In this document: positions 27,895 to 58,077 of the stretch, one piece after another
Layout: every line of letters starts with the position of its first letter
Position numbering within the stretch: the first letter of the stretch is position 1
Assembly (NCBI GenBank): GCA_947490615.1
Contig: CANLHK010000014.1
Coordinates: forward strand, 1 to 58,389
Source of the DNA: Planctomycetaceae bacterium
GTDB taxonomy: Bacteria; Planctomycetota; Phycisphaerae; Phycisphaerales; SM1A02
Reading direction: 5' to 3'
DNA: 58,389 nt
Position numbers and translations under genes: made by a program
Notes under the pieces: generated by a model
Told to the model about the DNA's origin: nothing
What the model saw: the letters and a program-made list of their open reading frames with translations, nothing else
Databases searched by the model: none

Positions 27895-30800
27895 TTGTCG
27901 AAGAAACCTGTGTCGCTGAAGGTCCATCAACTCGCCAAGGAACTCAATGTGAGTTCCAAGGAGATCGTCGCGCGTTGCCAGGTCGAGGAAATCCCCGACA
28001 TTGTCAACCACCTCTCACCTGTCTCGTTGGGTCTCGCCCTGACGGTGCGTGAGTGGTTTGCCAACGCGGCTTCGAGTGCAACGACCGCGACGGCGACGCT
28101 CGACGGACCCGATGCGTCACCAACCAAGGTTGATGCCGACAGCGGCGAAGAGGGCGGCGACGAAGCTCCGCGCGCCGTCGCCAAACGCGCGACCAAGAAG
28201 GTCGCTGCGCCAGAACCAGTGAAGGCGCCCGCCAAGCCCGCGGCAGCGAAAGCTCCCCCCGCGATCTTGACTCCTGCGACCTCCGCAGATCACGAAACGC
28301 CCGCCGCCGCCACGAGCGCCACGAGCGCCGCGAGTGCCGCGAGTGCCGCGAGTGCCACGAGCACCGCGAGTGCCGCGAGTGCCACAAGCACCGCGAGTTC
28401 ACAGCTGGTTGCCAAGCGTGCCCCAGATGTCGCGGAGTTGGAACCAGCATCCGAAGCGCCTCATGCGGCGCGCAAGCCAGTTGCCGAAGAGGCAGCCAAG
28501 GCGCCCGCCGCCCCAGCAGCTGCCGCGCACTCCGCAGCGATCGAGAAAGTAGCAGGATCGTCCGCCCCGGCAGAACCAAAGCCGGTAGCTCCAGCCGCCG
28601 TCGTTCATCACGCCCCGAGCGCACCTGCTGCTCCCTTGAAACCCGCGCTCCCGCGCATGCCCGCTGGATTGTCGGCACGCTTGGCACCGCGTGAACCCGA
28701 TCGTCGGAGCGAGGGAGGTTCGGCCTCGACCTCATCACCACGCGCTCCCATGAGCGGCGCGACGGGCAGCACGACGCGTCCACCGCTTGGTGCACCTCGC
28801 ACGGGCGCCCCGACAGCGGGCGCAGCAGGTTCAGCAGGCAGGTCGGCACCCGCAACGCCAGCGGCCCCGCGCCGCGTCATCACTTCTCCGCCGCCGCCGC
28901 CAGCGTCGATGGTGAGGCTTGGCGATGCACCACCAGTGATGAATGTCCCCACGCGCCCAACAGCGACGGGACCAGTCGGACCACAAATCGTCTCGCCGAG
29001 CAAGACCAAGTTGTCTGGCCCGCAAGTCATTCGCGTGGAGACTCCAGACAATCTCCCGACGCCACCTCCGATGCGTCGCCTCACGACGGGAACAGGCAGT
29101 GGTGGCATCGCTGGACGCACCGGCCGAACTGGCACGGGTGCAGGCGGTGGCGCAGGTCGCCCCGACGCGCGAGGTCGAGGTGGAATTGGAAGTTCGCGCA
29201 CTGGTCGCGCAGGCGACACCGCGCGCGTCGGACTCAACCCAACCGATCAGAAGGACCGGGCCGCCGCGATTGCAGGCGCGAAGGGCTGGCTTGGTCGGCA
29301 TAAGCCAGCGATGGGTCGGTCGATGGGTGGCCACGGCGGCGGCACGACGCGCGTCGACCGCAAGCCGGGCGAAGTGCAGCAGATTCATGTTGCTGAACCG
29401 CTCACCATCAAGGAGCTCTCCGCGGCAACGGGTGTGAAGGCTGTCGACATCATCAAGAAGCTCTTCCTCAACGGGAAGATGGCCACGATCAACAGCGCGA
29501 TTGAGCGCGAAGTGGCGATCGACATGATGATGGAACTCGACATCGACCTCATCGTCGATGAAGCGGTCTCGGCCGCGGACATCATCGAGGCGCGCTTCAA
29601 GGATCGCGAGAAGCTCGATGAGCGTCGTCGCGCTCCGATTGTCACCATCCTCGGGCATGTCGATCACGGTAAGACGAGTCTGCTCGATCGCATCCGCAAC
29701 ACCAACATCGCTGCGGGCGAAGCGGGCGGCATTACCCAGTCGACGCGCGCGTTTACCGTGCCGGTCAAGGCGGGCGATGTTGATCGCGTCGTGACCTTCA
29801 TCGATACCCCTGGTCACGAGGCGTTCACCGCGATGCGCGCGCGCGGCGCGCGTGTCACCGACATTGTGGTCTTGGTCATTTCGGCCGTCGACGGCGTGAT
29901 GCCGCAGACGATCGAGTCGATCAACCATGCCAAGGCCGCGGGAGTGCCCGTGGTCGTCGCGCTCAACAAGATCGACCGACCCGAAGCAAACGAAGCCACG
30001 ATTCGTCGTGTGCTCGGTCAGCTCGCCGAGCATGAGCTCAATCCCGTCGAGTGGGGCGGCACCACCGAAGTCATTCGCACCAGCGCGACGCGTGGCGACG
30101 GCATCCAGCAGCTGCTGGAAACCCTTGATTACCACTCGGAATTGCTCGGTATGAAGGCGGACTTCAAGGGCAGCGCGCGCGGAACCGTGCTCGAAGCATC
30201 GGTGGAAGAAGGACGCGGTCCAGTGGCGCGCGTGCTCATCCAAGAAGGCTGCTTGAAGAAGGGTGACTTCATCGTCATCGGACGCGGCTACGGTCGCGTG
30301 CGTGACATCGTGAACGATCGCGGCGCTCGTGTGATCGAGGCGTTGCCCTCGACACCCGTGGCGATCTCAGGCATCGACGAACTGCCCGACGCGGGCGACA
30401 AGGCGTATGTCGTCGCTTCGCTGCGCGCAGCCGAAGAGGCCGCAGAAGAGCGTCGTCGCATCGACCGCGAGCGCGAGCTCGCTGCGCCGAAGATCACGCT
30501 CGACAACATCTTCAAGCACCTCGAGAAGCAGGGCAAGAAGGAACTCGCGCTCGTCGTCAAGGGCGATGTGCAGGGCTCCGTCGAAGCACTCAAGGGCATG
30601 CTGGCAAAGCTCCCCGCCGAAGAAGTTGCGATCTCGGTCAAGAGCGCGAGCGCGGGTGGCATCAACGAAGGCGATGTCACGCTCGCGGCAGCGACCAACG
30701 CGATTGTCGTGGGCTTCAATGTCACCTCGAGTGCCAAGGCACGACAGGTCGCCGAGAGCAAGGGCGTCGAGATCCGACTCTACGAAGTCATCTACGACCT

Positions 30801-35541: not shown

Positions 35542-35810
35542 GCAGCAATACAGAACCGCATCGGGGCGAGGCGCCATGGTTCGGCATGACGTTGTTCACG
35601 CTGTATTGCGTGGCATACGCCGCGTTTGTAGTCGTGGCAGCGTTCGCGACATTCCGAGAAGGAAAGCCCGCGGGCGGGTTGGCGACGGAGGCGTTTGGTG
35701 GACTCCCGTGGGGCATCGTCGCGGGCTTTGGGTTGATCGCAGGCGCGTTCGTGCTCGCCTTGATCTACGCGATTTTTGGACGGGTGTCTGACGAGGGGAT
35801 GACGCGGTGA
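35538..35810 (+). CDS. DUF485 (YjcH-like) small membrane protein
   Basis: 90 residues with two helices (~15-38 and ~57-80). The layout W-F-x-M-T-L-F-x-L-Y followed by a charged turn and GLPWGIVAGFGLIAGAFVLALIY (key residues G-L-P and A-L-I-Y) matches DUF485, which is almost always encoded next to the ActP symporter, as here. Start overlaps the upstream stop, and its own stop overlaps the actP start (GTGA), giving a tightly coupled three-gene run. Confidence 0.88.
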   Translation: MSSNTEPHRGEAPWFGMTLFTLYCVAYAAFVVVAAFATFREGKPAGGLATEAFGGLPWGIVAGFGLIAGAFVLALIYAIFGRVSDEGMTR

Positions 35811-37564
35811 TCTACGAGGCAAGTGCTCTTTCGATCACGGTGTTCGGGATCTTTGTCGTGGCGGTACTCTCGCTGAGTTTCTGGCTCGGCTCGCGCGCGA
35901 AGAGCTCGCGTGGGTACTACGCCGCGGATGGACGCGTCGGTTGGTTCGTCAACGGCATTGCATTCGCGGGCGACTATCTGTCGGCAGCGAGTTTCCTTGG
36001 CATCTGCGGGATGATCGCGTTCTATGGGTACGACGGGTTCCTGTACTCGATCGGCTATCTCGCGGGTTGGATCGTCGCGCTCTTCGTGATCGCGGAGCCG
36101 GTCAAGCGCCTCGGTCGATACACGCTCGCTGACGCGCTGAACTCGAAGTTCAACTCGCGAGGGATCAAGCTCGTTGCAGCCATCTCGACCTTGGTGATTT
36201 CGTTGTTCTATCTCGTGCCGCAGATGGTCGGTGCGGGCGCGCTCGTGAAGCCGCTGCTTGGACTGCCGCATTGGGCAGGCGTCACGATGGTCGGCGTTGC
36301 TGTGACGGTCATCGTGGCGACCGCGGGAATGGTGGGCACCACTTGGGTGCAGCTCATCAAGGGATCGCTGCTGGTGCTGGTCTGTGCCGTCCTCGTGGGG
36401 CTGATCCTCGATCGAGGACTGAGCATTCCTTCCACCGCGATTGGCTCGTCGGAGGTCCAGCGTCTCGCCAAGACTCCCGAAGGCATCGTCGTGAACGGCG
36501 CGCCTCTTTCACGAGAGAACCAGCTCGATACTCGACTCCGGGCCGAGCATGGAGTCGGCTTTGGATCGGTGGCGCAACTTCCTGCTGGCGCGCGGGCGAC
36601 GGGACCGCTGGGACCAATCGACTACCTCAAGACCTTCTCGAACTCGACCATCACGGTCTGGAAGAAGTCCGTCGAGTCCGATGGCACGACAGTGTTGACA
36701 CCAACGGAGCGCAGTGGAGCGGACCTGCTCCTGCCTGGCGCGAATCCAACATTTCGCGGCGTGCGCGACGATCGCGTTGGGTCGAAGCTCGACTTCCTCT
36801 CACTCATGCTCGCGTTGTTTCTTGGCACTGCAAGCTTGCCGCACATCCTGATTCGTTACTACACCGTGAAGGATGCAGCGTCCGCGCGCAAGAGCACGGT
36901 GGTCGGTATCGGCGCGATCGGGGCGTTCTATGTGCTGACGCTGTATCTCGGACTCGGCGCGATGACGAGCGGTGCGTTGGATCCGACCGACTCGAACATG
37001 TCGGCGCCGTTGCTGGCGAAGACCTTCGGGGATGGGATGTTTGCCGTGATCAGCGCAGTGGCGTTCACGACCGTCTTGGGCACCGTGAGCGGATTGATCC
37101 TCGCGGGAGCGGGAGCGGTCGCCCACGACCTGTGCACTGGAGTCTTCAGAATCGAGCTCTCTGATCATGAAGTAGTCCGCGTCGGAAAGCTCGCGTCGAT
37201 CGGCCTTGGACTCGTGGCGATTGTGCTCGGGATCCTGTTCGAGCAGATGAATGTCACCTTTCTCGTCGGCTGGGCGTTCAATGTCGCGGCGAGCGCCAAT
37301 CTGCCCGCGCTCGTGATGCTGCTCTTCTGGAGGCGCACCACGAAGGAAGGGATCATCGCCGCGATGGCGGTCGGACTGATCACAAGCCTCGGGTGGATCT
37401 TGAGCTCCGCCGACACGCTCGAAAAGGTGTACGGGTATTCGGCGGTTGATTCGGTGAGGCACGCACTGGTTCCCTTCAGCCAACCAGCGATTGTCACCGT
37501 TCCGATTGGCTTCTTGACTCTCATCGTGGTGTCGATAGCGACCTCACGGAAGCCCGTGCACTGA
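35807..37564 (+). CDS. actP: Sodium:solute symporter, acetate permease ActP-like
   Basis: 585 residues from GTG 35807, about 13 helices. Family motifs: a GRVGWFVNGIAFAGDYLSAASFLGICG stretch (key: A-G-D-Y-L-S-A-A-S-F-L-G), YTLADALNSKF, PQMVGAGALV and, late, the LPHILIRYYTVKDAASARKS region. A long hydrophilic loop at ~205-325 is larger than in simple SSS members but is known from ActP relatives. Predicted to import acetate or similar monocarboxylates with a cation. No acs gene is nearby. Directly after the stop is a GAGCTC-GCAA-GAGCTC hairpin, and 77 bp on begins the 9-bp array. Confidence 0.9.
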   Translation: MIYEASALSITVFGIFVVAVLSLSFWLGSRAKSSRGYYAADGRVGWFVNGIAFAGDYLSAASFLGICGMIAFYGYDGFLYSIGYLAGWIVALFVIAEPVKRLGRYTLADALNSKFNSRGIKLVAAISTLVISLFYLVPQMVGAGALVKPLLGLPHWAGVTMVGVAVTVIVATAGMVGTTWVQLIKGSLLVLVCAVLVGLILDRGLSIPSTAIGSSEVQRLAKTPEGIVVNGAPLSRENQLDTRLRAEHGVGFGSVAQLPAGARATGPLGPIDYLKTFSNSTITVWKKSVESDGTTVLTPTERSGADLLLPGANPTFRGVRDDRVGSKLDFLSLMLALFLGTASLPHILIRYYTVKDAASARKSTVVGIGAIGAFYVLTLYLGLGAMTSGALDPTDSNMSAPLLAKTFGDGMFAVISAVAFTTVLGTVSGLILAGAGAVAHDLCTGVFRIELSDHEVVRVGKLASIGLGLVAIVLGILFEQMNVTFLVGWAFNVAASANLPALVMLLFWRRTTKEGIIAAMAVGLITSLGWILSSADTLEKVYGYSAVDSVRHALVPFSQPAIVTVPIGFLTLIVVSIATSRKPVH

Positions 37565-37566
37565 GG

Positions 37567-37582
37567 GAGCTCGCAAGAGCTC
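37567..37582 (+). repeat. GAGCTC inverted pair with GCAA loop
   Basis: GAGCTC-GCAA-GAGCTC, 3 nt after the actP stop codon. The hexamer is self-complementary, so the transcript can form a 6-bp stem with a GNRA tetraloop. There is no T-run, so it is a weak terminator at most. Confidence 0.6.
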
Positions 37583-37640
37583 GCCGGCGGCAACACGAGG
37601 ACGCCCAGCGGGCGAACCCGTGGATGCGGGTAGGACTCGG

Positions 37641-37867
37641 GTGAGCTCGGATGAGTTCGGTGAGTTCGGTGAGTTCGGTGAGCTCGGTGAGCTCGGATGA
37701 GCTCGATGAGCTCGATCAGCTCGACGAGCTCGATCAGCTCGGTGAGCTCCATGAGCTCGATCGACTCGATGAGCTCGATGAGCTCGATGAGCTCGATCAG
37801 CTCGATGAGCTCGGTCAACTCGATGAGCTCGATGAGCTCGATCAGCTCGATGAGGTCGGTGAGCTCC
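37641..37867 (+). repeat. Degenerate 9-bp GAGCTC repeat array (array 1)
   Basis: 25 units of a 9-bp consensus RTGAGCTCG (GAGCTC plus GAT or GGT spacer); two units carry an extra G, and about 15 of 25 keep an exact GAGCTC. It lies between the convergent actP and efp genes. One frame reads as an E-L-D repeat and another as an S-S-M repeat, but no gene context supports translation. Neighbouring hexamers can pair into 6-bp stems with 3-nt loops. Confidence 0.9.
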
Positions 37868-38045
37868 CCTCACTCCTGCAGAGCTGCGTCTGAGCGAACC
37901 GCCGATCGGCTGCAACTCGGAGTTACTTTCGGGGAGCTCCGAGGAAGCTCACCACAAGTTCACCTCAAGCACCAGCGAATCTCATCTCAATTGCGCAGAC
38001 GTCGACGGACGCCTTCCCAGTGCGGTCGGAACGCAGACGCGGTGC

Positions 38046-38351
38046 CTAGGAGGTCGGTGAGCCTCGGCCGAGAACTCGCGAGCACATCGCTTTTCGATTT
38101 TTGGCGCAAGGCGGGACTGGCAGACTCTCGACGCACTCCGCCGCGCGCGGGAGGGAGGCGGGGTCGAAGTCGATCGGTACTGTCGAGGGGTCTCGGACAA
38201 ATCCAGCGGCGCGCGTGAGCACCGCAGATCCACGGTGCCAGAGGGTGTCGGTCCTGAGGTCGATGACGAGCTCGCCATCCACTGGCGTGACTCCGCCGCC
38301 GAGACGCAGACGACTCGCGCACCGAGCGGTTGGCCGCGGCAACTCGCGCAC
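38046..38351 (-). CDS. Possible small hypothetical protein downstream of efp
   Basis: 101 residues from GTG 38351, which directly abuts the efp stop codon (TAA at 38354-38352), so translation could be coupled. Third codon positions are GC-rich as in the neighbours, and the segment VDGELVIDLRTDTLWHRGSAVL looks strand-like (cut at the length limit). The C-terminal third is Cys/Pro/Arg-rich and unconvincing. I do not recognise it. The alternative is that this is non-coding, since other frames are open here too. Confidence 0.35.
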   Translation of the reverse strand: MRELPRPTARCASRLRLGGGVTPVDGELVIDLRTDTLWHRGSAVLTRAAGFVRDPSTVPIDFDPASLPRAAECVESLPVPPCAKNRKAMCSRVLGRGSPTS

Positions 38352-38906
38352 TTACGCGCGGCTGCGATAGGCGCCATCGCTGGTGCTCACGATGATCTTC
38401 TCACCAGTGGTGATGAAGGGTGGCACGCGCGTTTTCAGTCCAGTCTCGCAGGTCGCCTCTTTGAGCTGGTTCGTCGCTGTCGCACCCTTAATGCCGGGAG
38501 GGGTGTCGGTGACTTGAAGGACGACCGTCAGTGGGAGCTCAACCGAGATCGCCTTGCCGTCGCACCAGAGCACGATGATTTGGTTGTTCGGGAGCACGAA
38601 GAGCGCGAGCTCGCCCACGACCTCCTTCGAGAGCTCGACTTGGTCATAGCTCTCAAGATCCATGAACACCGACTTGCCAGCCTGGTCATAGAGGTATTCC
38701 ATCTGGCGTCGATCGAGGTCAACATTTTCGACATCCTCGCCCGAACGGAGCCGCTTCTCGATCAAGGAGCCAGACTTAAGGTCGCGGATCTTGATCTGAA
38801 CGAATGCCCTGAGGTTTCCCGGCGTGCGGTGCTCGGTCTCAAGGATCAGGAAGAGCTTGCCATCCATCTTGATGGCCATGCCAGGGCTCAGGTCAGTGCT
38901 ATTCAC
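38352..38906 (-). CDS. efp: Elongation factor P with Asn at the loop-tip position
   Basis: 184 residues, three-domain EF-P that rescues ribosomes stalled at proline runs. Seen: KOW-like N-domain with LSPGMAIKMDGKLFLILE, domain II with VLQVTDTPPGIKGATAT, and C-terminal GEKIIVSTSDGAYRSRA. The domain I loop that reaches the peptidyl-transferase centre reads TPGNLRAF (residues 28-35). The residue in the place of the modified Lys34 of E. coli is Asn31, and the following Gly is Leu32. So modification by EpmA, EarP or DHS-like routes at this site is impossible. The 480-bp upstream gap holds a tRNA-like inverted repeat and a hairpin. Confidence 0.93.
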   Translation of the reverse strand: MNSTDLSPGMAIKMDGKLFLILETEHRTPGNLRAFVQIKIRDLKSGSLIEKRLRSGEDVENVDLDRRQMEYLYDQAGKSVFMDLESYDQVELSKEVVGELALFVLPNNQIIVLWCDGKAISVELPLTVVLQVTDTPPGIKGATATNQLKEATCETGLKTRVPPFITTGEKIIVSTSDGAYRSRA

Positions 38907-53807: not shown

Positions 53808-56596
53808 CCCGCCGCATGCACTCGATTCTGTGTGTCGCGGGGCGCGAGTGGCGAAGCGCTTTTGTTGCGCCGACGGGGTGGATCGTGTTGGCCATCGTTG
53901 GGATCGTTGCGGCGTCGTCGTTCTTCAGTGGACCCTTCATCGAGTCGCATCCAGCGTCACTCCGAACGGTCCTGCTTGCTTGTGGATGGGCGTTGCTGGC
54001 CACAGCCCCTGCGCTTTCCATGCGCGCATTCAGCGACGAATTCAGACTCAAGACCTGGGAGACGCTCTTCGCGAGTCCGCTCTCGACCGTGGACATGGTC
54101 GTGGGAAAGGCACTCGCATGCGGAGCCATCCTCGCGACGAGCTTGCTGCCGATTCTGTTTCTCGCGATCCCGCTCGAGGTGTATGCCTCTCCCGATTTTG
54201 GGGAGATCGGATGTGGCCTACTCGGTTTGTTTCTCGCGGGTTTCGCGGCCAGTTGCCTTGGGGTCGCTGTGTCGAGCACGACCTCGAGCCAGGCGGTTGC
54301 GTTTCTTGGCGCGTTCTTCTTGTGGCTCGGGCTCGTCGCTGGATCGCGGCTGCTGGTCTCGGTGTTGCCGCTCGAGTACGCGCCGATCGCTGCCGCAGCC
54401 GATCCGATTCGGCGACTTGAGGGATTCGCACTTGGGCTGTTTGACACAGGTGCCATCGCGTACTTCGGAGCGATTTCAATCGTGGCGCTGGCATTTGCGA
54501 CGGTGTCGCTTGAACGGATCCGGGGGAGTTCGGCTGGCTCGCTGTTCTCGCGCCTGATGACGCTGCTTGAGCGAGGCGTCTTTGTCGTCGGTGTTGTTGC
54601 GGCGTGCACTGCGGCGGTCGCGTTGCTTTCTCAGCCGGCGATGCGCCTCGAGCTCGATGCTACGAAGACTCGGGCCTACAGCCTCGCTCCCGCAACCAGC
54701 GACCTGCTTCGAGAGCTCAAGGGCGCGTGGCAGGTGCTGATCTTTGCGGATGCACGGCAGGCCGACCCCGCGGTGTTGCGACAGATCGACGAGGTGCTCG
54801 AGCGGTTCCGTGAAACGAATCCATCCGTCGACGCGCGGCGCATTGATCCATCGGATCCCGCTGCGAGTGGTGCGTTTGAGGAGGCGCTCGCGTCACTGGC
54901 TGCGAGTCGCGCAAGTGACCTCGCGACTGCAGAAGCGGCGATCGCTGATGGCGTGGCGGTGTATGACCTCTTGCGCGGTGAGAGTGCGGCACAGCCCGCA
55001 GGACTCCGCGCTGCCGCACAGCAACTTCCCTCAGACAGCGTGGTGCGCAGGACGCTCGAGCAGCTCGCGGCGCTGTTTGCGCAGATTGCCACCGATGGTG
55101 AGAAGTTCAAAGTGCAGGTCACCGAGCTCGCCCGAACAAGCGCGACACGACCACTCCCGGATATTGAGGGCGCGCGGTCCGCGCTGGCACAAGGATTCCG
55201 CGTGTGGGGAGATCAGCTCTCGTCCGCTGCGGCGTTGTTCACGCAGTGGCGCACACAGGAGTCGCTTCCACAGTCAGTGCGCAATGTGGCGGGATCTCGG
55301 ATTGAGCGATTCGAGCAATTGGCGACGCAACTACTTGCCTCGCGCCAAGTTCTCGAGGCGCTTCCAGCACTCGAGCTTGATGCGCTCGGTCGAGAGCTTG
55401 TCAATGGTGAGGCCGCGGTCGTCGCGGGTGCAGGTCGGATGGCAGTGATCCCAGCGTGGCGGATCTTCCCGCGCGACACCGTGACCGAAGGTGCCGATCG
55501 CGTCTCGTACAGTTGGAGCTTTCGTGGCGAGGAAGTTCTCTCTGGAGCAATTCGCAGTATCGCGACTGGCTCCATGCCAGAGGTGGTCTTCGTCCATTGC
55601 GAACGAGATTCACTGCTCCGAGTGCACCAAGATCACAATGACCTCGCGGCGGTTGCTGACGCGCTGAAGAGCGCGGGGTTTGGCGTGCGCGAGTGGACTC
55701 CGGGCCGTGGCGAGCGTCCGACAAAATCAAAGGAGCGCACGCAGGTTTTCGTGGTCGTTCCAGCTCTCAAGCGAGCTCAACTTGAGCTCTCGCGCGAGGA
55801 GCGACTGCTCGCGGAGGAAGCAGCACACCTTGTTGCCGATGGCGATGCGGTTCTCCTGACAGCTGGTCGCAGCATGCTCGCGGTGCTTGGCCAACCTGAC
55901 CCGTGGCAGCAGACTCTTGCGCCATTCGGAATCGCGCCATCCGCGGCAAAGATCGTGCTTGAGCTGGTCGCCAAGGAAGACGGCACGCCAGAGGTTCGGC
56001 CGTGGCAGTTGATTGAGCGTGTTCCAGCGGATTCGCCAGTGGCGTCGCGGATGCGAGGCCGCGCGATATTGATGGCTCAGGCGATGCAGATCGATGTTGC
56101 CAAGGCGCTGCCCGAGGGCGTTCGCGTCACAACCGTCGTTGAGGTGGAGCCATCGACCAACCGTTGGCTCGCGGACGACTGGCGTGGTGATGGCGACGGC
56201 GCTCGCGAAGTTCCCTCTGGCCAAGCGCTGACGACCGCCGTACCCGTTGCGGTGTTCGGAGAACGAAAAGTTGCGGGTGGTTCACAGCGCGTGGCGTTGG
56301 TCGCGAGTGGAGGATGGCTGCTCACGAGCGTGGCTGATCTTTCTGACAGCCTCGGTGGTGGTCGAACGGCGCTAGTGAATCCTGGCAATCGAGAGCTCTT
56401 GCTGTCGACCGTTTCGTGGCTCGCAGGCCGATCAGACTTGCTCGACGCAGGATTGAGCGGTCGTGAAGTCTCGCGGATCGAAGATCTCTCCGACGCGGCG
56501 CGCCGAATATGGATGGTGGGGCTCGGCGGGCTCCTCACCCTTGGCCCCATCGCGCTCGGCGGTCTCATCGTCGGGCAACGGAGGCGACGCGGATGA
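53804..56596 (+). CDS. ABC-2 permease fused to GldG-like auxiliary protein (GldF-GldG fusion)
   Basis: 930 residues. The first ~250 are a six-helix ABC-2 permease (VAGREWRSAFVAPTGWIVLA, then SDEFRLKTWETLFASPLSTVDMV, key residues E-x-x-x-T-W-E-x-L and S-P). A helix at ~262-280 starts the GldG-like part: LDATKTRAYSLAPAT, a coiled region (~330-560), RIFPRDTVTEGADRVSYSW and PEVVFVHCERDS, ending in a C-terminal helix (~900-920) and basic tail. In Flavobacteria gldF and gldG are separate genes. Overlaps both neighbours by ATGA, so it sits mid-operon with the ATPase and the DUF4340 protein. Confidence 0.85.
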   Translation: MTRRMHSILCVAGREWRSAFVAPTGWIVLAIVGIVAASSFFSGPFIESHPASLRTVLLACGWALLATAPALSMRAFSDEFRLKTWETLFASPLSTVDMVVGKALACGAILATSLLPILFLAIPLEVYASPDFGEIGCGLLGLFLAGFAASCLGVAVSSTTSSQAVAFLGAFFLWLGLVAGSRLLVSVLPLEYAPIAAAADPIRRLEGFALGLFDTGAIAYFGAISIVALAFATVSLERIRGSSAGSLFSRLMTLLERGVFVVGVVAACTAAVALLSQPAMRLELDATKTRAYSLAPATSDLLRELKGAWQVLIFADARQADPAVLRQIDEVLERFRETNPSVDARRIDPSDPAASGAFEEALASLAASRASDLATAEAAIADGVAVYDLLRGESAAQPAGLRAAAQQLPSDSVVRRTLEQLAALFAQIATDGEKFKVQVTELARTSATRPLPDIEGARSALAQGFRVWGDQLSSAAALFTQWRTQESLPQSVRNVAGSRIERFEQLATQLLASRQVLEALPALELDALGRELVNGEAAVVAGAGRMAVIPAWRIFPRDTVTEGADRVSYSWSFRGEEVLSGAIRSIATGSMPEVVFVHCERDSLLRVHQDHNDLAAVADALKSAGFGVREWTPGRGERPTKSKERTQVFVVVPALKRAQLELSREERLLAEEAAHLVADGDAVLLTAGRSMLAVLGQPDPWQQTLAPFGIAPSAAKIVLELVAKEDGTPEVRPWQLIERVPADSPVASRMRGRAILMAQAMQIDVAKALPEGVRVTTVVEVEPSTNRWLADDWRGDGDGAREVPSGQALTTAVPVAVFGERKVAGGSQRVALVASGGWLLTSVADLSDSLGGGRTALVNPGNRELLLSTVSWLAGRSDLLDAGLSGREVSRIEDLSDAARRIWMVGLGGLLTLGPIALGGLIVGQRRRRG

Positions 56597-58077
56597 CCCG
56601 AACGGTTCCTTCCACAGGCGGTGTTCGATGGCGCTGGCTGCGAAGCCTCGTCGCATTCGGCTGCGCCGCTGGATGCACCTTCGCGGCGATACGCCTTGAG
56701 GAGAAGCCCACCTCGAGCCTCGCGCAGCGCCAGCCTGTTGTCGACCCTGCTTCGATTGACATCGACCGCATCGACCTCGTGACGCTGGAGCGTGACGGGA
56801 CGCGCTATCGGTTCGAACGCCGAAACAACCTCTGGCAGCAGACTGAGCCCGTGCCGCACGCGGTCGATGGGTGGAGCATGAGGCAGCTCATTAGTCGCGT
56901 CCTCAAGCTCGAGACCGTCAGGCAGGTCGAGCTCCCGACCTCGGACGACGCGGCACGAGAGGCGTTGCTTGCGGCTGCCGGGCTCTCACCCGCGGCCGCG
57001 CGAATCGAGCTCGCCGAGTCGGGAACAAGCGGGGTTCCAGCGCGTGCCGTGACGGTTGAGCTTGGTCGCCGAAGTCTCGCCGGGCGCGCTTATGCGCGGC
57101 TTGCAGGCGACACGAACTCGTACGAGGTCGTCGATGCTGCGCTTCATGAGTTCGCACTTGGTCGCGATCCGAAGGAGTTTCGGCGGCGCGACTTGTTCGT
57201 GGAGCTCGGCGACGTTGATCGCGTCACATTCCGAACTGCGGCGGGTGAGCTCGTCCTCGCACGACAAGCTCGGGCCTATCGGCTTGAGTCGCCCGTGAAG
57301 TCGCGCGCGGACCGTGTGCAAGTGGAAGAGCTCCTCGACGCGCTTCGACGCGCGAAGAGTGCTGGTTTCGTCTCAGATCGACCCGCGGAGCTCTCCGCGT
57401 ACGGGCTCAGTCCAGCGATGGCGACGCTCGAGCTTGATTCCGCTGGAACGCGTCGAACGCTGCTGATTGGGGATGCTGTTTCAATCGGCGCGCAAGACCG
57501 ATTCGGCATGATCGACGGAACGAGCACCGTGGTCCGCCTACCTGCTGCGATGCTCGCAGTGTCGCTCCCGCGGATTGAGCGGCTGCTCGATGCCGTGGCC
57601 AGTGGCATTCGAGCACGCGATGTGGCGGGGATCGAATTGTCGATCCCTTCAGCGTCGCCATCTCCCGCGCAGGGCGAGACCCCCGCGAGCTCAACCCTGC
57701 AGCGCTTGACACTCCGACGAGAGACTTCGGGATGGTCTGCCGTGCTGTTTGGTCCTGGATCGGGGAAGGGGATTTCGGGCATGGTGGAGTCTGATGCGGT
57801 GGACCGCCTCCTGAAGGCTCTGACTGAGACACGTGCGGGGAGTGTCGAGGTTTCTGCCTATCCATCAGCTGAGTCGATCGGGACGGTGACCTTTGTTGGA
57901 TTTGCGGGGGAGCCGCTTGATTCGGTCCGTATTGCTCGTCGAGCTCTGGACTCGAAAGTGCTTCTCGAGAACGGGGATGGGGTGCTGCGAGTGCACGGCG
58001 CAATCGATCTTCCACTTTCAGCTGAGGAACTCGGGTTTCGCGCTGCCGTCTCTGCGGAGGGCGCCGCTGCGAACTAG
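56593..58077 (+). CDS. DUF4340 domain protein
   Basis: 494 residues from ATG 56593, overlapping the upstream stop codon. N-terminal signal anchor (~12-30, WLRSLVAFGCAAGCTFAA), then repeated DUF4340 modules: RIDLVTLERDGTRYRFERRNN with LWQQ (first), DVDRVTFRTAAGELVLARQ with RLESPV and ADRVQVEELLDALRRAKSAGF (second), and a third C-terminal module starting near LTLRRETSGWSAV. Proteins of this type are regularly encoded after GldF/GldG-like genes and are thought to act with the transporter outside the membrane. By eye it holds at least eight GAGCTC sites. The second 9-bp array begins 97 bp after its stop. Confidence 0.82.
   Translation: MTRTVPSTGGVRWRWLRSLVAFGCAAGCTFAAIRLEEKPTSSLAQRQPVVDPASIDIDRIDLVTLERDGTRYRFERRNNLWQQTEPVPHAVDGWSMRQLISRVLKLETVRQVELPTSDDAAREALLAAAGLSPAAARIELAESGTSGVPARAVTVELGRRSLAGRAYARLAGDTNSYEVVDAALHEFALGRDPKEFRRRDLFVELGDVDRVTFRTAAGELVLARQARAYRLESPVKSRADRVQVEELLDALRRAKSAGFVSDRPAELSAYGLSPAMATLELDSAGTRRTLLIGDAVSIGAQDRFGMIDGTSTVVRLPAAMLAVSLPRIERLLDAVASGIRARDVAGIELSIPSASPSPAQGETPASSTLQRLTLRRETSGWSAVLFGPGSGKGISGMVESDAVDRLLKALTETRAGSVEVSAYPSAESIGTVTFVGFAGEPLDSVRIARRALDSKVLLENGDGVLRVHGAIDLPLSAEELGFRAAVSAEGAAAN

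Follow-up and report, generated by a model that had tools for sequence, protein, structure and literature searches.

Two tandem arrays of one 9-bp unit, GAGCTCGRT, lying about 20 kb apart in gaps between convergent genes of a planctomycete, are in our judgement likely to be non-coding minisatellites of the variable-number (VNTR) type that sit in dispensable DNA. The stretch that was analysed (58,389 bp, hereafter the window) corresponds to one entire contig, C14, of a draft genome of 3.26 Mb and 28 contigs; it contains the first array (array 1) between a symporter gene and efp, and ends inside the second (array 2). The coordinates of the arrays and their neighbours are given in Table 1.

Two arrays of one unit

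Array 1 was recovered by Tandem Repeats Finder (TRF) with a period of 9, 24.8 copies, 84% matches and a score of 283. Twenty order-3 Markov copies of positions 1-58170 of the window held no period-9 array and reached a top TRF score of 78; array 1 is well above chance, a short unit repeated head to tail. A reading of the sequence alone had described 25 tandem 9-bp units around GAGCTC. The array proved real, but its regularity had been overstated, as only 15 GAGCTC hexamers are intact and two of the steps between units measure 10 bp rather than 9. The hexamer is kept in 14 of the 24 full units and changed in the other 10 (variants CAGCTC, GAGTTC, GAGGTC, CGACTC and CAACTC), and substitutions hit seven of the nine unit positions, which together with the two 10-bp steps would fit decay without constraint. 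Spacers between hexamers are 3-4 nt long and nearly constant; a CRISPR, which requires unique spacers between its repeats, was rejected, in agreement with the sequence-only reading. That reading had also placed the array in an actP/efp gap. The convergent pair of a symporter gene and efp stands, whereas the name ActP reflects similarity only, the symporter scoring below the cut-offs of the ActP models.

Table 1 Features at and around the two arrays, with positions in the window.
Feature	Position	Strand	Evidence
Sodium:solute symporter gene (SSF/ActP-like), ends 77 bp before array 1	35807..37564	+	ORF; PF00474 (1.9e-72); ActP models matched below cut-off
GAGCTC-GCAA-GAGCTC, possible 6-bp stem with tetraloop, directly after the symporter stop	37567..37582	+	Sequence
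Array 1, ~25 units GAGCTCGRT, 15 intact GAGCTC, two 10-bp steps	37642..37866	+	TRF, unit listing
Rest of the symporter/efp gap, 485 bp	37867..38351	.	Lag-9 identity, Pfam scan of two ORFs, sister comparison
efp (elongation factor P), facing the symporter gene	38352..38906	-	Profile matches
DUF4340 gene, stops 97 bp short of array 2	56509..58077	+	Profile match
Array 2, C14 side, 23.9 units, reaches the contig end	58175..58389	-	TRF; C8 end at 167439-167694 beside ribD

Array 2, at the end of the window, was absent from the sequence-only reading. Another contig of the assembly, C8, likewise ends inside a GAGCTCGRT array, of 28.4 units. The outermost gene at this end of C8 is ribD, that of C14 the DUF4340 gene; since the two lie side by side and converge in 15 of 15 relatives from the genus, the two contig ends almost certainly represent one array that broke the assembly. 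The ends have an identical 98-bp block in common and also overlap without gaps over 197 bp at 96% identity, so that array 2 would have at least 28 units. Array 2 is cleaner than array 1; the C8 side keeps GAGCTC in 27 of 28 units and the C14 side in 22 of 23. On the chromosome, the two arrays are mutually inverted, and the longest identical stretch between them is 31 bp. Their flanks share at most 10 identical bp, and a copied segment with common flanks was rejected on these grounds.

A genome-wide search with a loose three-unit pattern gave 72 matches, 64 of which fall in arrays 1 and 2. The eight left over are about as many as the seven of a reversed-pattern control, and no third array was found. 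Both arrays lie in convergent gaps, which supports the suspected link to gene ends. REP/BIME elements, for which many dispersed copies would be required, were rejected on the same counts. GAGCTC itself occurs 339 times in 467.6 kb of the genome, compared with 337.7 expected; as the hexamer is not avoided elsewhere, a decoy for restriction sites was rejected as well.

Clusters of GAGCTC next to both arrays were noticed post hoc. A triple within 45 bp lies at the 3' end of ribD (L119:9290-9327), beside array 2, and a pair within 16 bp follows immediately on the symporter stop, beside array 1; an 800-kb sample of the genome held no such triple and two such pairs. The last 150 bp of ribD lack GAGCTC in 14 of 15 sisters, and the remaining sister has one copy. 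Slippage alone leaves these clusters unexplained. Elsewhere in the window, at positions 28308-28397, a further 9-bp array with the unit CGCCGCGAG was seen, which probably lies within a coding region.

The same gaps in sister genomes

Of 15 sister genomes, 4 lack a match to the symporter; in the others, 11 of 11, the symporter gene faces efp over a gap of 44-117 bp, compared with 787 bp in the present genome. According to a simple, purpose-made gene caller run with repeats masked, this is the longest among 112 convergent gaps in 868 kb of the genome. The gap between ribD and the DUF4340 gene measures 10-171 bp in 11 of 15 sisters, and in 4 of 15 the two genes overlap. None of these 22 homologous gaps (11 of each kind) contains GAGCTC. 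Other tandem units of 5 to 20 bp do occur there at TRF scores of 50 or more, namely in 3 of 11 symporter/efp gaps and 4 of 11 ribD/DUF4340 gaps, compared with 8 and 20 of 550 shuffles, respectively. In one sister, three convergent gaps within 20 kb hold three different repeat units. Judged by these comparisons of sequence, both arrays are non-coding and missing from the same gaps of the sisters examined.

The unit looks private to the present genome. Four-unit patterns matched none of 60 other relatives and none of 396 other genomes of the class, and a five-unit pattern with up to three mismatches matched 1 of 293 other genomes of the phylum, weakly and in a genome in which a control pattern matched too; these three samples overlap and many of their genomes are incomplete. 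Among viral contigs, the exact three-unit pattern matched once, in a three-unit stretch of a 298-kb contig.

Sister genomes gave matches of just 26-44 bp to the 485 bp that separate array 1 from efp, and did so in 4 of 15 cases, though the whole gap is as short as stated above in 11 sisters. Two ORFs scanned in this part had no Pfam match, and no promoter-like site was found in the gap region. Because neither a promoter-like site nor a gene was found, insertions may well be tolerated there. Identity at lag 9, tested as a sign of a decayed array, was 0.25 and not raised. Unit-like 9-mers number six in the 485 bp, a count matched by 3.3% of shuffles and 8.7% of genomic windows, and GAGCTC occurs twice, matched by 9.8% and 3.1%, respectively; since few shuffles or genomic windows reach these counts, some traces of a decayed array are possible.

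Crowding of tandem repeats into convergent gaps was surveyed more widely. At a TRF score of 50, 12 of 39 intergenic repeats in a first sister sample lay in convergent gaps (p = 0.0009; p = 0.011 without the three focal rows), as did 19 of 64 in a held-out sister sample (p = 0.020), and both samples surveyed together gave p = 0.0004. Other Phycisphaerae loci yielded 7 of 23 (p = 0.073), and the present genome outside the window and the ribD locus (L119) yielded 2 of 21 (p = 0.68). When the score was set to 70, the counts were 10 of 30 for the first sister sample (p = 0.0012), 10 of 39 for the held-out sample (p = 0.17) and 1 of 6 for the other Phycisphaerae loci (p = 0.67). The crowding is a weak tendency of the sisters and is not seen in the present genome.

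Folding, termination and other readings

The position of both arrays between convergent genes also suits a bidirectional transcription stopper or RNA-stabilising hairpin array, in which RNA entering from either side would fold and pause or have its 3' end protected; we regard such a role as unlikely. In its favour, the folding of positions 37560-37880 surpasses that of dinucleotide shuffles on both strands (z = -6.3 and -5.9). Repetition itself can yield such an effect, however: among scrambled 9-mers, each repeated 25 times, 27 of 200 equalled or surpassed the fold of a perfect GAGCTCGAT array. The optimal + strand fold of array 1 consists of long rods, with two hairpins of which the longest spans 126 nt. 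With the pairing span limited to 30 nt, short hairpins appear, and these local hairpins leave room for a physical effect of array 1 on RNA.

The 17 substitutions off the consensus cost about as much stability as random ones do. In a control with 24 units, from which the extra base of each 10-bp step was left out, the observed + strand units reached -123.6 kcal/mol, compared with -116.5 (sd 6.1) for random placement, where 20 of 150 arrays were as good, and with -119.2 (sd 3.1) for substitutions kept at the same unit position, where 14 of 150 were as good. On the - strand, 55 of 150 and 45 of 150 random arrays equalled the observed one. The shift of the + strand towards stability, although it agrees with a hairpin role, is slight, and about one random array in ten reaches it. 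A selected RNA hairpin array found no support, as the substitutions are not placed to keep pairing. The chain of short hairpins that the sequence-only reading had envisaged did not hold up, given the rods of the best + strand fold, the scrambled units that fold alike and substitutions that disturb the fold no less than random ones. For the 6-bp stems with 3-nt loops that it had drawn between neighbouring units, only six intact neighbouring pairs GAGCTC-NNN-GAGCTC are left.

A terminator had been suggested as well and found no support. Positions 37400-38500 contain no intrinsic terminator, i.e. no GC-rich stem followed by a T run, where shuffles have 0.6 sites on average; moreover, the 22 sister gaps do without GAGCTC, and some of them read, by eye, as ordinary hairpin terminators. 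Intrinsic bidirectional terminators resemble the arrays in lying between convergent genes, but the arrays lack the stem with its T run. Rfam gave nine matches with E up to 1, all under the gathering scores, and eight of these were microRNA models on the repeat; an RNA of a known Rfam family was rejected accordingly.

Less probable than a stopper, and improbable overall, is that the two arrays are functional partners, be it as a silent inversion switch or, with the GAGCTC clusters beside both, as targets of a GAGCTC-binding protein, specific to the lineage, that would block colliding transcription. They flank a 20-kb block reaching from efp to the DUF4340 gene, and both end genes of this block point outward; recombination between the arrays would flip the 20 kb and leave every junction convergent. 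We give somewhat less weight again to an array of sites for a putative GAGCTC-recognising DNA-binding protein, e.g. a chromosome-organising or silencing factor. The occurrence of one unit at two places 20 kb apart and the extra GAGCTC clusters beside both, rare as they are in the 800-kb sample, would suit such a protein, yet the unit is missing from the other genomes searched, bar the one weak match, the hexamer is as frequent as expected, and array 1 has lost its intact form in 10 of 24 full units.

It is very improbable that array 1 forms part of a translated repeat protein. The unit length is divisible by three and long open frames cross the array on both strands, but the two 10-bp steps shift the frame, and a coding repeat was rejected as no constant frame runs through the array. 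The short sister gaps leave little room for a gene, two weak Pfam matches to eukaryotic families are all that was found and stay below the cut-off, and the exact match in a viral contig is merely a three-unit stretch. In this respect the sequence-only reading, which saw no fitting gene start or ribosome site despite a unit length that is a multiple of three, was right. An assembly artefact has an equally slight chance: a draft of 28 contigs with array 2 at contig ends would allow for it, whereas array 1 lies inside its contig between unique flanks and carries unit variants unseen in array 2.

Probable repeat turnover in convergent gaps

We favour the minisatellite reading, in which a short GAGCTC-containing seed would have been multiplied by replication slippage or unequal recombination, within surrounding DNA that presumably tolerates insertions. 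Ectopic copying of one array was probably the source of the other, with array 1 perhaps the older and now in decay; if transcripts of the flanking genes are affected at all, this would be a side effect. Repeats also lie at some contig ends of this assembly. Array 2 breaks it at two of them, and a tandem repeat lies no more than 20 bp from 3 of 56 ends, compared with 0 of 1000 random windows. The end of contig C11 (L233:1219-1447) and the start of C1 (L159:4-168) hold the same region of 12-bp and 11-bp repeats, distinct from arrays 1 and 2, in which the copies of the 11-bp unit differ (5.2 vs 7.2, TRF). The difference may go back to strain variants or to a join that the assembly left unresolved, and is as expected if repeats in the population vary. 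A match to SbcD (TIGR00619) was found in none of 16 genus genomes, while the control matched in 13 of 14 control genomes, 8 of them above the cut-off; the absence fits a tolerance of hairpin DNA, but does not explain arrays in one species only.

Several points speak against a minisatellite. It is unusual that the GAGCTCGRT unit is common to two sites, where the sister mentioned above has three different units in three convergent gaps. Of 69,066 gap bases in 40 stretches of the genome, 7,419 belong to convergent gaps, and two arrays both lying in such gaps would be a coincidence of about 1% if randomly placed, repeats elsewhere in this genome showing no enrichment there. Variation in the copy number of array 1 was not seen in the single genome at hand. 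The GAGCTC clusters beside the arrays are a further point, given that slippage does not account for them.

REP and BIME elements are palindromic and extragenic. The arrays share both traits and differ in being two tandem arrays only, whereas REPs occur in high copy (PMC3733652). In the accessible portion of a study on lake Planctomycetota, intergenic tandem repeats are tied to structural variants and non-coding deletions (PMC9426551); these are likewise intergenic tandem repeats of planctomycetes, but that portion characterises no single array, while here one unit fills two convergent gaps. Prokaryote satellites are described as species-specific families of short repeats at several places in one genome (PMC6749651), and resemble the present arrays in being local, species-specific and sometimes multi-site, e.g. 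Fam_1_14_23 of Chloroflexus aurantiacus. The arrays differ from them in having two sites only, both between convergent genes, and in their self-complementary core. A literature search short of full texts found no published description of a GAGCTCGRT array.

If the common unit proved functional, it would show the birth of a new regulatory or inversion array. A striking palindromic array should not be read as functional without comparing the gaps of sister genomes. As read here, the two arrays are an extreme example of repeat turnover in the convergent gaps of planctomycetes, in which non-coding DNA seems free to change and at which assemblies can break.
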